From Candidatus Fimimorpha faecalis (GTDB lineage: Bacteria; Bacillota; Clostridia; Lachnospirales; Lachnospiraceae): a stretch of 64,000 nucleotides of DNA. The notes under the pieces are model-generated. The model did not search any database, had not been told where the DNA came from, and saw only the letters and a list, made by a program, of their open reading frames with translations. Positions 4,000 through 12,844 of the stretch are shown here, piece by piece; positions within the stretch are counted from its first letter, which is position 1, and every line of letters starts with the position of its first letter. The position numbers and the translations under genes are program-made. The stretch is taken from positions 1 to 64,000 of the forward strand of contig DVHN01000101.1 of NCBI GenBank assembly GCA_018712075.1, read 5' to 3'.

Positions 4000-6250
<2,251 letters not shown>

Positions 6251-7680
6251 ATAGTGATAGGTAAGTCTACTGTTTCTTTGTGTTTCCGACTTTTCCCCCA
6301 CTCCACACCGTACATGCACCTTTCAGCGCATACGGCGTTCCATCGATTTTAAAATTAAACCAATATGACTATATTGCGTTGGATACACATTGGTATAGGA
6401 ATTAACGAATCACCTATCTCTGATTTCTTAGCGATTCTTTTGTAATTAACAATAATGTTTATACAACAATTTTGTCATTTCCAGCCATTTCTCTTAGTTT
6501 ATTGACTTTTTCTAGTTCATATAGTGTTAAATTTATTATTTTAAGGTATTTATTTATTGTTTCTTTATTTTTAGCGTGGATTAATTTATGCACTGTTTCT
6601 AACACTAATGTCAGATTGGCATATTCATCTCCTCCACCTTTTTCTTTTGGGTGTTTGTGATGGCAATGAATTTCTCCAGTACTTCTGAATATTCTTTGCG
6701 TCACAGAACATTTTCCCATTTGAGCAGAAAACAACGATAACCTATTATATTTCTATATGCTAACAAAATATTTTCTCTGGACAATATATCATCCATTAGA
6801 TTTTGGAACTTTTTTCCATTGGAACTTCTTTGATATAAATCATCAAATCTATCCTGTAGATTGTAATATTCAGAGTGTCTTAGATTATCTACAACATTCG
6901 TTTTTCCATCATTTCTTGTAGGCACAAGGCATCACCTCCTCCTTTTACAGATTGAGTGACTTTTTGATCATACTCGAAATCCTTGTTGTAGATTCGTTAT
7001 TCCTATTATTTTAAAACCGACTTGTGCCCATTCCTCCACTCTCATTACAAGAGCTTCATAGGTTCGAGCACTGCTTTTCAGCATTGGTTCGGTTGCTTAT
7101 TATTCTTCGCCAACCTATTCCTTTATAGGAACCCAATACCTTTCCTCGTACCGATAATTCTATCTTTACATTTATACCCTTAGGTGCCTAGCTCTGCTCC
7201 TGTTGGCTTGATAAGACCCGCCGACTCTAACTAGTCTTCGTCTTATATGGTTTTTCATAACAAATATTCTTACTAGACCACACCAACGATGCGTTTGCAT
7301 CCCTATGAGTTTCCCCATAGGCTTCATATAGTTGCTTAAATTCGCTGGTTCGTCAGTTGTGTAGGTGCCACAACATTCTCACCATAGGTATTTTATAGAC
7401 TCCCGACATATCATTAACCATGCCTTTCATAATCGATTCACACAGGCGGGCTCTAACCTCTTTTGTACCAATGTTACTATCGGTTATTACTGAGTTTAGG
7501 CTAACTTCTGCCGACTTCACCGAACTTCTGACCACTAATGTTTCCATTTATGTAGCCAGTCGGAGTATTAGAGGTGATGTTTCAAGGCGTTACTCTATCA
7601 TTCCATCACTCGAATTATCAGTTCTCCTCCTGTTTAAGAGTGCTACCTCTTTGTTTATTTAAAGGTAGAACGAGTCGAAC
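6251..7680 (-). mobile_element. Group II intron B in dnaE (about 1430 nt), carrying a deleted reverse transcriptase ORF
   Basis: 5' end GTTCGACTCG (cf. GTGCGAC), domain V-like GGAACGCCGTATGCGCTGAAAGGTGCATGTACGGTGTGGAG near 6300-6345, 3' end ...CCTATCACTAT; removal restores the DnaE frame FNK|SHAAAYA. Confidence 0.9.
6459..6925 (-). pseudogene. Remnant group II intron-encoded protein: RT N-terminus fused out of frame to the C-terminal HNH domain, core RT/maturase missing
   Basis: ORF 6701-6925 (GTG start, PTRNDGKTNVVDNLRHSEYYNLQDRFDDLYQRSSNGKKFQNLMDDILSRENILLAYRNI) and ORF 6459-6734 (SAQMGKCSVT...GEIHCHHKHPKEKGGGDEYANLTLVLETVHKLIHA) overlap in different frames; together far too short for a complete RT. 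Confidence 0.88.
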
Positions 7681-7917
7681 ATTTATTAAACGCATATCTT
7701 GCAAAATCAATCATTTCATCATAAATATGATTTGCTATCGCTTCATCAATTCCATTATTAATACATCCTAAAACGCCCTCTTCTGGATTGCCGTATACAA
7801 AATTTTTCCTTTCCTTTTCCATAACAGCAATCTTCTTTTTTGACATCGCACGTCTTACCAAATCACTTCTTCCAAGCGTATATCCACCCAATTCTCTTAC
7901 AATTTGCATTACTTGCT
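7681..7917 (-). CDS. dnaE: DNA polymerase III alpha subunit, exon 2 of 3 (237 nt)
   Basis: (E)QVMQIVRELGGYTLGRSDLVRRAMSKKKIAVMEKERKNFVYGN...YDEMIDFARYAFNK, conserved DnaE segment between two introns. Confidence 0.92.
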
Positions 7918-8828
7918 ATCGAGATAGGTAACCCTTTGATACTGGAACTTTCCTTCCATATTCTCCAGGTTTTCCCCCTCGTCACACCGTGCATGCTAGT
8001 TTTCCAGCACACGGCGTTCCATCGTTGTAACTTTCATTCATCCTATTCAAATTTTCCCATTTAGTTTTGGAGTTTCCTTTCTTCTGATTTGAAAGTGAGC
8101 CTTTTTAGTCATACACGAAATCCCTATTGTATTTGAATGAATAAATTTACTTTGTTTTAAATCTATAAAAGCTACAACAACTTGTGCCCATTCCTCCATT
8201 CCCATTACAGGAACTTCATTGGTTCGAACACTACTTTTCAACACCGATTCAACTGCTTATTTTTCTTCGTCAGTTTATATCCAACTTATTTCATTTAGAT
8301 ACTCGATATCTTTCCTCGTTCCACAATTTCTATCTGTACATGATTTCCTTAGGTGCTCAATATAGACCTGCTAGCTTGGATGTGCCTGTAACACACCATG
8401 GTATTTCATAACCAAGATTCTTACTTTACCACACTAACGCCGTTTCGAGCGGCTCTGTATGTTTCCATACAGTCATATCTAGATCCTTTAAATTCTTGAG
8501 TTCGTCAGTCGTTATTACATACTCACCATAGAAATTTTATAGACTTCCGACATATCACAAACCATATCTCATACTTTCATCTTTCCTGGCAGGCGGGCTC
8601 TAGCCTCTTTTGTACCAACCCTACTTAATGATTTCTTTAACTTAGGTCTGCTTCTGCCGACTTCACCGAGCTTCTAACACCTACCGTTTCCGTTTATGAT
8701 GCTAGTCGGAGTATTAAAGAGTAAGTTTCAAAGCGTTACCTTATCATTCCTTACTTCGAAATTGCAGTTCTCCATTATTTTCACAATGTGCCTAGCCTTT
8801 GTTTATTTAAACTAGGAACGAGTCGCAC
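7918..8828 (-). mobile_element. Group II intron A in dnaE (about 911 nt), no encoded RT
   Basis: 5' end GTGCGACTCG, domain V-like GGAACGCCGTGTGCTGGAAAACTAGCATGCACGGTGTG near 7980-8025, 3' end ...CCTATCTCGAT; removal restores IIYQ|EQVMQIV; multiple blocks shared with intron B. Confidence 0.9.
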
Positions 8829-10842
8829 CTTGATAAATGATACACCCATAGGTTGACTCTAAAATTGATTTTAACTGTGGACAATCATAGGTAATAGAAG
8901 CTTTATCATTTTTTCCCTTTAAATATTGAGGGATAAAGTTCATTGGACCAGGCCGATACAGTGAGATTCCAGCGATAATGTCTTCTAAGTTTTCTGGCTT
9001 TAATTCTTTCATGAAACTTTTCATTCCACTACTTTCCAGCTGGAACACTCCTTCGCATTTTCCTGTTCCAATAGACTCCAATACTTCTTTATCATCAAAA
9101 TCAATTTTATCAATATCAATTTTAATTCCCCGTGTTTTTTCCACATTATTCACTGCGTTTTGAATTACTGTCAATGTACGCAGCCCTAGAAAATCCATTT
9201 TTAAAAGCCCCAACTCTTCTAATGTTGTCATTGTAAACTGTGTTGTAATCGAACCATCAGATGCCCGGGATAATGGTACATATTCATCAACTGGTTTTTG
9301 ACTAATTACTACTCCTGCTGCATGCATGGAAGTATGACGTGGCAGTCCCTCCAGACGTAATGACATATCAATTAAATATTTTACTTGTTCGTTCGTCTCA
9401 TACATGGACCGCAGCTCTGGATTCATTTTCAACGCCGTTTCAATCGTCATATTCAGATCATTTGGTACCATCTTTGCAATGGAGTCACAAAGAGAATACG
9501 GCAAATCTAAAACACGACCGACATCTCGAATGACACCTTTGGCTGCCAACGTACCAAATGTAACAATTTGTACAACCTGTTCTTTTCCGTACTTTTTTAC
9601 TACATAATCGATAACTTCCTGTCTTCTTTCATAGCAGAAATCAACGTCTATGTCTGGCATAGAAACTCTTTCTGGATTTAAAAAACGTTCAAACAAAAGA
9701 TCATATTTTATTGGATCAATATTTGTAATTTCCAAACAATAAGAAACAATACTTCCAGCTGCGGAACCTCGCCCTGGTCCTACCATAATATGATTTTGTC
9801 TCGCAAAATGGATAAAATCCCAGACGATTAAAAAGTAATCGACGTATCCCATACTATGAATTGTGTCCAGCTCATATTCCAAACGTTCTTTTAACTGTTC
9901 TTGCTGATTCGGATAACGACGTGTTAATCCTTCGTAACAAAGTTTTCTTAAATATTCCCATGACGTATATCCTTCTGGAACTTGAAACTTCGGAAGTTTC
10001 GTTACTCCAAACTCGATTTCCACATTGCATCTCTGTGCAATTTTATGAGTGTTTTCCAGTGCCTGCAATGCATATGGAAATAATTCTTGCATCTGTTGTT
10101 CTGACTTGCAGTAATATTGACCGCCTTCATAACGCATACGATTCTCATCACTGACTTTTTTTCCTGTTTGAATACAGAGCAGAATATCATGCGGAATAGC
10201 ATCTTGCGCATTAATATAATGAATATCATTCGTTGCCACAAGTTCAATTCCCGTCTCCTGGCTCATTCGAAGTAATTCCTGATTTACTCGCTGCTGTTCT
10301 GAAATTCCATGATCCTGTAATTCTAAGAAGAAATTTCCCTTTCCAAAGATACTCTCGTATTCTTTCGCACGCTTTTTTGCTTCTTCATAAAGTCCCTTTG
10401 TAATATAACGTGGCACTTCCCCTGCCAGGCAGGCACTCAAAGCAATAATCCCCTCGTGATACGTTTGTAATATCTCTTTATCCACACGAGGCCGATAATA
10501 AAATCCATCCACAAATCCTTTTGAAACAATCTTCATTAGATTGTGATAACCAATATCATTTTCTGCAAGCAGTACAAGATGATAATATCGGTCTTCTCCT
10601 CCAGTCTGTTCTCTATCAAACCGTGAATTTGGAGCAACATAGATTTCACAGCCAATAATTGGTTTAATTCCAACTTCTCTTGCAGCACGGTAGAAATCAA
10701 TTACCCCATACATTACACCGTGATCCGTTATTGCCATCGAATCCATTCCCAATTCTTTTGCTTTTGCAACGAGTTCTTTTATTTTACAGGAACCATCCAA
10801 TAAACTATACTCTGTATGCACATGTAAATGAGTAAATGCCAT
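8829..10842 (-). CDS. dnaE: DNA polymerase III alpha subunit, exon 1 of 3 (PHP domain and N-terminal polymerase core)
   Basis: MAFTHLHVHTEYSLLDGSCKIKELV ... GRGSAAGSIVSYCL, DIDVDFCYERR ... STYGCIIYQ, then intron 5' end. Confidence 0.95.
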
Positions 10843-11027: not shown

Positions 11028-11900
11028 CTATTCTTTTTCTCGAAAATATTTTTCCTTTATATGAGCTACGGGCATATCTGTTCCAGTCCAAAGCCGAAAT
11101 GCTTCCGCACCTTGATAGAGTAACATATATAATCCATTAAACGTAGGGCATCCCGCTTCTTTTGCCAATTTCATTAGTTTGGTTTCTCTTGGATTATAAA
11201 TAACATCCGAAACAACCAACTGAGCATGAAACATAGTTGGATCCTCAATAATTGATTGATCTTCATTCGGAGCCATACCTACATTTGTCGCATTGGTTAA
11301 AATTGCACTTTCTGAAATCTCCTTCTTAAGAAGCTCTTTATTGGCAAGATCAAATAACCTTACTTTACAATTTGTCTCTTTATTCAAACGCTGTGTCATT
11401 TCCTGTGCATGATTCCATGACTTTCCATGCCGGCAAAACAGGGAAACTTCTTTTACTCCATCCAATGCCGCCTGCACTAAAATAGCCATGGCTGCACCGC
11501 CTGCGCCAATTAAAGTCATCTTCTTTCCAATAATTTGAAATCCAGCTTCCTGCACGGACATCATATAGCCAACTCCATCTGTATTATATCCATATAATTT
11601 CCCCTCTTCATTCACAACCGTATTTACTGCTCCAATTAATTCCGCTGCTGGTGAAAGGAAATCACATAACTCATACATTCGAATTTTGTCTGGCATTGTA
11701 CAATTCCAACCTCTTGCACCAAGCTGCTTTAATGCCTCTACTTTTTGTTCTAATTCTTCTTCTTTTGCATCAAAACAAAGATATACATAGTTTTTATTTG
11801 TAATTTTAAATGCTTCATTATGCATCAATGGTGAAATACTATGTGCGACTGGATGTCCTAATAAACCAGTTAATTTGGTATATCCATTCATTCTTCCCAT
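11028..11900 (-). CDS. aroE: Shikimate dehydrogenase
   Basis: LTGLLGHPVAHSISPLMHNEAF, NTDGVGY, GAGGAAMAI motifs. Confidence 0.93.
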   Translation of the reverse strand: MGRMNGYTKLTGLLGHPVAHSISPLMHNEAFKITNKNYVYLCFDAKEEELEQKVEALKQLGARGWNCTMPDKIRMYELCDFLSPAAELIGAVNTVVNEEGKLYGYNTDGVGYMMSVQEAGFQIIGKKMTLIGAGGAAMAILVQAALDGVKEVSLFCRHGKSWNHAQEMTQRLNKETNCKVRLFDLANKELLKKEISESAILTNATNVGMAPNEDQSIIEDPTMFHAQLVVSDVIYNPRETKLMKLAKEAGCPTFNGLYMLLYQGAEAFRLWTGTDMPVAHIKEKYFREKE

Positions 11901-12844
11901 ATTTTATATCCTTTCTTTTTTCCTCCGATAATCGAAAATTTTCCAGTCTTCCTAGAAAAACAATAAACCGACGGACTAAGTCGTTCATTCGGTTTTGGAA
12001 TTGTTACATAAGTCCTCTCCGCAATTTCTTGAAAAATTTCCCATCTACCGTATTTTTGAAATGGAACAGCTACTAATTCATGAACACTAAGCGCAGTTAC
12101 AGCCAAGTCACTATGAACTTGTTCTGCTAACTTCTTCCAAATGCTCAAATAACATAAATATACCGCTCCATAATAATTTGCCTTATTTGAAATAAAATAC
12201 ATATCTCTACAATTATTCTTATTCTTTCGTATCTCATCCGTTAAGGAAAATGCCTCCATTTGATCCAACTCCTGAAGATAGTTCACAACATCAAATAGAT
12301 TACTTACCACTGGCGGAAGTATTTGAGGTGTATTTCTCTTTGCACAATAGTATAATTCCGCCTCTGTCTGTTTCCATATTTGCTGAATCTGTTTTGTTAC
12401 AACAATATTGCCCCATTGATTATCTGGATAGGAAACTGCAATATAATAAATAATCGCCATATCAAGGAAATGGCGATGTGGAACACTTGTCAGCCATATT
12501 TTATTCTCTTCATAGTTGACAAGCTGTAGAGCGAGATGTCCTTTTATATGGTCATAACAAAACAGTGGATTCCATAATCCTTTTGTACTATTACAGACCT
12601 GCCTGAAAATCTCTGTGATTTCCATTTGTATTTGAGAAAGACTTACTCCTGCTTTATACCGCCTATAATAAGGCATCACATAAACAGCAGGAGAATTATT
12701 TCCTCCCCTTACAACAAACGCATCTCTTATATAATTATTATTTTTACGAACTGGATAAACTGTGATGAAATAATCACGAGGAAGATTTGCAGTTACGAAC
12801 GTTACGACTGCCTTTATAAATGATTGATATTTCATGAACAACAT
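11888..12844 (-). CDS. DUF5688-like hypothetical protein
   Basis: Uninterrupted 318-aa ORF; general resemblance to Lachnospiraceae DUF5688 proteins. Confidence 0.55.
   Translation of the reverse strand: MLFMKYQSFIKAVVTFVTANLPRDYFITVYPVRKNNNYIRDAFVVRGGNNSPAVYVMPYYRRYKAGVSLSQIQMEITEIFRQVCNSTKGLWNPLFCYDHIKGHLALQLVNYEENKIWLTSVPHRHFLDMAIIYYIAVSYPDNQWGNIVVTKQIQQIWKQTEAELYYCAKRNTPQILPPVVSNLFDVVNYLQELDQMEAFSLTDEIRKNKNNCRDMYFISNKANYYGAVYLCYLSIWKKLAEQVHSDLAVTALSVHELVAVPFQKYGRWEIFQEIAERTYVTIPKPNERLSPSVYCFSRKTGKFSIIGGKKKGYKIWEE

Follow-up and report, generated by a model that had tools for sequence, protein, structure and literature searches.

Can a polymerase gene carry an intron whose own helper gene has been cut out of it, and what becomes of such an intron? 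The question is raised by dnaE of Candidatus Fimimorpha faecalis (assembly GCA_018712075.1), which lies on the minus strand (10842 to 5031) of the 64,000-nucleotide stretch of contig DVHN01000101.1 analysed here, hereafter the window, and has two interruptions, introns A and B. An earlier note on the same DNA had described intron B as a group II ribozyme with a gutted reverse transcriptase. The assembly comprises 200 contigs and is 99.95% complete; relatives were sampled at one genome per species.

A polymerase gene with two introns

The exons and RNA elements of the locus, in the direction of the gene, are:

8829..10842, minus strand: dnaE exon 1, codons 1-671 and the first base of codon 672 (open frame 8812-10842; spliced three-exon coding sequence)
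7918..8828, minus strand: intron A, 911 nt, GTGCG...CGAT, no open reading frame (RF02004 129.8 bits, RF00029 51.9 bits; ends set by restoring E672)
8411..8416, minus strand: EBS1 of intron A (CTTGGT), pairing with IBS1 ATCAAG at 8829-8834
7681..7917, minus strand: dnaE exon 2, flanked by introns A and B (spliced three-exon coding sequence)
7681..7687, minus strand: IBS1 of intron B (AATAAAT), end of the 5' exon (EBS1/IBS1 pairing)
6251..7680, minus strand: intron B, group II, 1430 nt, GTTCG...ACTAT (Rfam matches; limits identical in L038, introduced below)
7392..7626, minus strand: ribozyme domains D1-D4 of intron B (RF02004, 140.7 bits; gathering threshold 34.5)
7259..7265, minus strand: EBS1 of intron B (ATTTGTT), 7 of 7 pairs with AATAAAT here and with AACAAGT in L038
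6251..6340, minus strand: D5 and D6 of intron B, with the catalytic triad CGC and, at about 6258 (-8), a bulged branch-point A (RF00029 57.8 bits, gathering threshold 40; fold; covariation)
5031..6250, minus strand: dnaE exon 3, codons 751-1156 (open frame; spliced three-exon coding sequence)

In-silico excision of 8828-7918 and 7680-6251 yields a single DnaE of 1,156 amino acids without stops or frameshifts, in which the removal of intron B joins ...FNK to SHAAAY.... Intron B runs from G7680 (GTTCGACTCG) to T6251 (CACTAT), so that the coordinates in the earlier note were exact: they restore the dnaE frame and are also the limits of the intron in L038. By analogy with other Firmicutes, DnaE is probably essential in this organism. 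Selection on codons 3' of intron A is purifying (dN/dS 0.05 in the comparison with G399), and constraint downstream of intron A was found in the window genome (G000), G284 and G398 alike. Because intron B was inserted recently, this says little about the splicing of intron B itself.

By its sequence and predicted fold, intron B has the group II architecture, with D1-D4, D5/D6 and an EBS1/IBS1 pairing. D5 contains one of the expected catalytic triads (AGC or CGC) and a 2-nt bulge, and D6 a bulged branch A at -8 (fold of 6251-6345; z -3.65); the D5/D6 of intron A folds in a similar way (z -5.10). A D5/D6 alignment of 12 related introns, 11 of them lacking an intact protein gene, had standard pairs in 99.4% of the paired cells. 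Compensatory changes were apparent in 12 of 27 pairs, against a mean of 6.4 in shuffled alignments (0 of 500 shuffles as high), and pairing fell to 34-48% when the partner was shifted by 1-3 columns. EBS1 has the same RNA context in each intron and covaries with the exon at three dnaE sites: CTTGGT for ATCAAG or ACCAAG at site A, ATTTGTT for AATAAAT or AACAAGT at site B, and ATTCCA for TGGAAT at site C (G398). The exception is L040, a second site-B relative, which showed no full match under the rule applied. The 5' end of intron B (7676-7680, minus strand) is GUUCG, one position off GUGYG; it is common to the site-B introns of the window, L038, L040 and G680, and intron A begins with GUGCG. 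In structural terms, the ribozyme appears as intact as the earlier note had supposed.

Deletion of the maturase gene

The earlier note had proposed alignment to full-length homologues, and one such homologue defined the end points of the deletion. Using the 60 N-terminal residues as a query, we found the same intron at the same dnaE codon in L038 (CASDVE010000041.1), a contig of uncultured Eubacteriales from another genus, with an open gene for a 641-aa protein. This protein is a group II reverse transcriptase/maturase by NCBIfam TIGR04416 (342 bits; cut-off 300) with Pfam RVT_1 at residues 115-362. Identity between the two introns is 99.4% and extends to the exact splice sites (1,421 of 1,430 aligned bases match, too many for chance); they are told apart by 8 substitutions, a 1-nt indel and a single gap of 1,450 bp with ATAA at both edges. 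In intron B, the remains of the protein gene are:

6746..6925, minus strand: N-terminal remnant, GTG start at 6925, L038 residues 4-63 (95-97% identical)
6745..6748, minus strand: 4-bp ATAA microhomology at the deletion junction, where 1,450 bp present in the L038 intron are absent (alignment to L038)
6459..6749, minus strand: C-terminal HNH remnant in another frame, L038 residues 546-641 and stop (99-100% identical)

What is kept amounts to 60 N-terminal and about 95 C-terminal HNH codons in two different frames, the join being out of frame because 1450 mod 3 = 1. At 21.1 bits the HNH remnant falls just short of the Pfam cut-off (21.4), yet its 95 residues match those of the intact copy at 100%. 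Residues 64-545 are lost, including all of RVT_1 and, by position, the maturase and DNA-binding regions, so that about three quarters of the helper-enzyme gene went in one deletion and the intact reverse transcriptase/maturase of a mobile retroelement is absent. These observations bear out the earlier note on the missing core between N-terminus and HNH end, on the frame of the join and on a recent internal deletion; its estimate of roughly 1 kb or more becomes exactly 1,450 bp. Its view of the intron as immobilised and without its own maturase would follow in cis from the destruction of the gene.

L040 was used as an outgroup; its intron is 77% identical, has a protein gene that is open to the contig end and falls outside the L038/G000 pair (100/99 support). 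With this outgroup, 5 of the 8 substitutions are derived in the window, 2 substitutions and the 1-nt loss are derived in L038, and one substitution is ambiguous. The start region GATGCCTTGTGCC is the same in the window and L040, and L038 has one T fewer. We had considered the extra T as a second lesion of the window intron and rejected this, as L040 has the same T and the change is that of L038; the GTG start is normal, as the earlier note had it.

The dnaE exons of the window and L038 share only 69.0% of nucleotides (68.2% at the protein level), with dS at about 2.4, near saturation. Because the introns are nearly identical and the exons so diverged, intron B is, on this comparison, far younger than the split between the two species. 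The closest relative sampled, G399, has an uninterrupted dnaE with neither intron A nor intron B, although its DnaE is 95.9% identical. Intron B thus most likely arrived after the split from G399 by transfer between genera, in either direction, and then lost its protein; the alignments indicate that the deletion is recent and derived and that the crossing between genera came shortly before. We considered two vehicles and rejected both: plasmids hold relatives well below the identity to L038 (best covering, Enterococcus faecium, about 71% over 56%), and phages and viral contigs give relatives at 54-62% amino acid identity only.

We propose that a site-specific group II intron, from the lineage that L038 also represents, retrohomed recently into a conserved dnaE codon, guided by EBS1/IBS1 pairing. 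The resident intron would then have lost 1,450 bp of its reverse transcriptase/maturase gene by deletion between two ATAA repeats, leaving a folded ribozyme and two out-of-frame protein scraps. It should still splice, unaided or helped by a host or foreign factor, since exon 3 of DnaE requires its removal, and copying itself in cis would no longer be possible. We hold this account, from recent retrohoming through ATAA deletion to a retained and probably still splicing ribozyme, with high confidence, and we read intron B as a fresh conversion of a mobile retroelement into a splicing-only intron within a probably essential gene.

Other stripped introns

A junction pattern search of 392 genomes of the order revealed one further site-B intron, in G680. 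About 1.57 kb has been lost (L038 intron positions about 1144-2720), and the remnant consists of 133 N-terminal codons with no HNH. Because the stretch lost differs from that in the window, the alignment marks this deletion as an independent event at the same site. The dnaE of G680 (L208, minus strand) has two introns; the upstream one ends before codon 551 and contains an open 629-aa frame, the product of which is about 34% identical to the L038 protein.

Site A is occupied in further genomes. Its introns are ORF-less in G284 and in G398, which has another ORF-less intron at site C; in G162 the protein gene has an out-of-frame internal deletion of about 80 codons, and in L084 it is apparently intact. 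We rejected vertical descent of intron A within the genus, as the tree puts G162, from another genus, among the ORF-less A introns of this genus, with moderate support (85-91%). Because G162, with a partly deleted gene, nests there, stripping at site A probably occurred more than once. Upstream of dnaE in G398 there is a RAGATH-18 RNA (L162 7535-7609, minus strand), with no match in the window.

We then surveyed the family for paired RF02004 and RF00029 matches in 397 genomes, adding the two G398 introns from the genus search. At least 50 paired introns were found, and their span is bimodal: among the matches listed, 10 span 620-1,376 nt and 40 span 2,068-3,100 nt, with none between 1,376 and 2,068 nt. 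The short introns come from at least eight genomes (G000, G284, G398, G203, G011, G016, G315 and G119). Their host gene is dnaE in G000, G284 and G398, a DUF815 AAA gene in G016 and, by inspection, an integrase-like gene in G315 and a gene of an apparent conjugative element in G119. In G203 and G011 the hosts are DUF5688 genes, interrupted in both at IPSSIHE; two genera have ORF-less introns of this RNA family there (L169 1118-1893; L170 1097-1771, minus strand). A DUF5688 gene without an intron lies in the window at 11888-12844.

Searches with the L038 protein found no intact HNH-type protein in seven of the eight short-intron genomes listed, which are drafts. Only G016 has a full-length HNH-type relative (44% over L038 residues 16-640); apart from the remnants in the window itself, the others gave no matches, or partial ones at no more than 47% identity and without the C-terminal HNH. 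A close copy of the helper gene elsewhere is thus lacking from most of these genomes, whose stripped introns should have to manage splicing without one. It is a tentative proposal, one we lean slightly against, that introns of dnaE in this clade lose their maturase again and again and are maintained with no cognate protein, spliced autonomously or by a host factor.

Predicted splicing without a close cognate protein

The earlier note had suggested looking for an intact close relative in the same genome, and we found none: the rest of the assembly contains neither the missing 1,450-bp segment nor its protein, and no second copy of the intron. Among its other proteins, the closest of group II type shows 32% identity over L038 residues 58-444, and a second reverse transcriptase match reaches 33% over residues 101-263; a closely related intron protein that could act as a maturase in trans is thus absent from this 99.95% complete assembly. 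An artefact of assembly or binning, with the segment present in the organism and missing from its 200 contigs, would fit so fragmented an assembly. However, the contig that spans the junction is at least 64 kb long, neither segment nor protein occurs elsewhere to form a repeat that could collapse, and G680 has a different deletion of the same kind at the same site; we regard such an artefact as very improbable. An ancestral short form, which the earlier note had named as grounds for abandoning a deletion and which would mean a gain of the protein gene by L038, might be suggested by the ORF-less forms common at dnaE in this genus. Yet the scraps, which lie in two frames, are 97-100% identical to the N- and C-termini of the L038 protein, and L040, outside the L038/G000 pair, is long as far as its contig reaches, which on sequence grounds refutes an ancestral short form unless L038 is a recombinant and leaves it hardly any probability.

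If the deletion is accepted, intron B might remain unspliced, with dnaE broken and the cell relying on other polymerases. The atypical GUUCG end and the two interruptions in one gene point that way, but the spliced gene encodes a complete DnaE with no stop or frameshift, both the EBS1/IBS1 pairing and D5/D6 have been kept, and intron A alone should have killed the gene, the downstream codons of which are nonetheless constrained in three genomes; this reading is very improbable. Intron B could instead depend for its splicing, and perhaps for continued mobility, on the protein of another intron in the cell; such help in trans is the usual rule for ORF-less bacterial introns (PMC4424553). The genome does encode an intact 506-aa group II protein with its own D5/D6 (L001). 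This protein is, however, about 28-32% identical to that of L038 and has RVT_N and GIIM domains, neither of which matches the intact L038 protein, and its intron RNA has no RF02004 match; moreover, G284, G398 and G011 also have ORF-less introns, and no HNH-type family protein was found there. We consider help in trans unlikely, if with a real chance of being right, and prefer the reading of intron B as a splicing-only intron that lost its maturase.

ORF-less bacterial group II introns are described as rare, and in nearly every case the genome also has a gene for a related protein; a single exception is named (PMC4424553). This is C.te.I1 of Clostridium tetani, which has no protein of its own and no related protein gene in the genome (PMC3919590, PMC4424553), as is the case for intron B; the stripped introns described here appear to extend that exception, in draft genomes. 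C.te.I1 lies in a surface-layer gene array, splices alternatively and has no protein remnant (PMC3919590, PMC4424553), whereas intron B is hosted by dnaE, has a fresh remnant and an identified intact parent. O.i.I2 of Oceanobacillus iheyensis (in radC) likewise combines a degenerate protein with a host gene but keeps an open frame and probably maturase function (PMC4424553), and the frame of intron B is destroyed. Protein-less introns in host genes are also known from cyanobacteria, where they use a trans-acting maturase (PMC4424553; PMC8637638 citing Meng 2005, Simon 2008); in contrast, no intact HNH-type family protein was found in the genome of intron B. Large domain deletions are likewise a feature of the 205 short ORFs catalogued as 'non-canonical' intron proteins (PMC8919778); in the available part of that source no single deletion is defined against an intact same-site parent, and dnaE is absent from the main text. 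Full-length HNH-bearing introns of Clostridia (L038; RF02004 D1-D4) share RNA, target codon and protein termini with intron B, which differs in missing the reverse transcriptase, maturase and DNA-binding regions. The kind of element is already known; what is new is a deletion caught beside its intact parent, in a polymerase gene, and recurring.

Conversion of mobile introns into splicing-only introns is central to models of the origin of spliceosomal introns. A single gene here offers for comparison a parent, its deletion product, a second site-B deletion of independent origin and older copies that have been stripped completely, so that matched constructs would allow a direct test of whether splicing depends on the lost maturase. 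If they are splicing-only, these dnaE introns would be a bacterial counterpart to organellar introns, within about 1% divergence of the loss. Two further loci of the same genome contain reverse transcriptases: in L003 (on C132; 1282-3579) the enzyme forms a fusion with a primase domain of archaeo-eukaryotic type (135 bits to NCBIfam PrimPol_Msp, under the cut-off of 200) downstream of a Cas1-like gene, and in L002 (on C46; 20-2211) Cas1-Cas2-like genes, named by eye, adjoin a reverse transcriptase, the frame being open at the contig edge.
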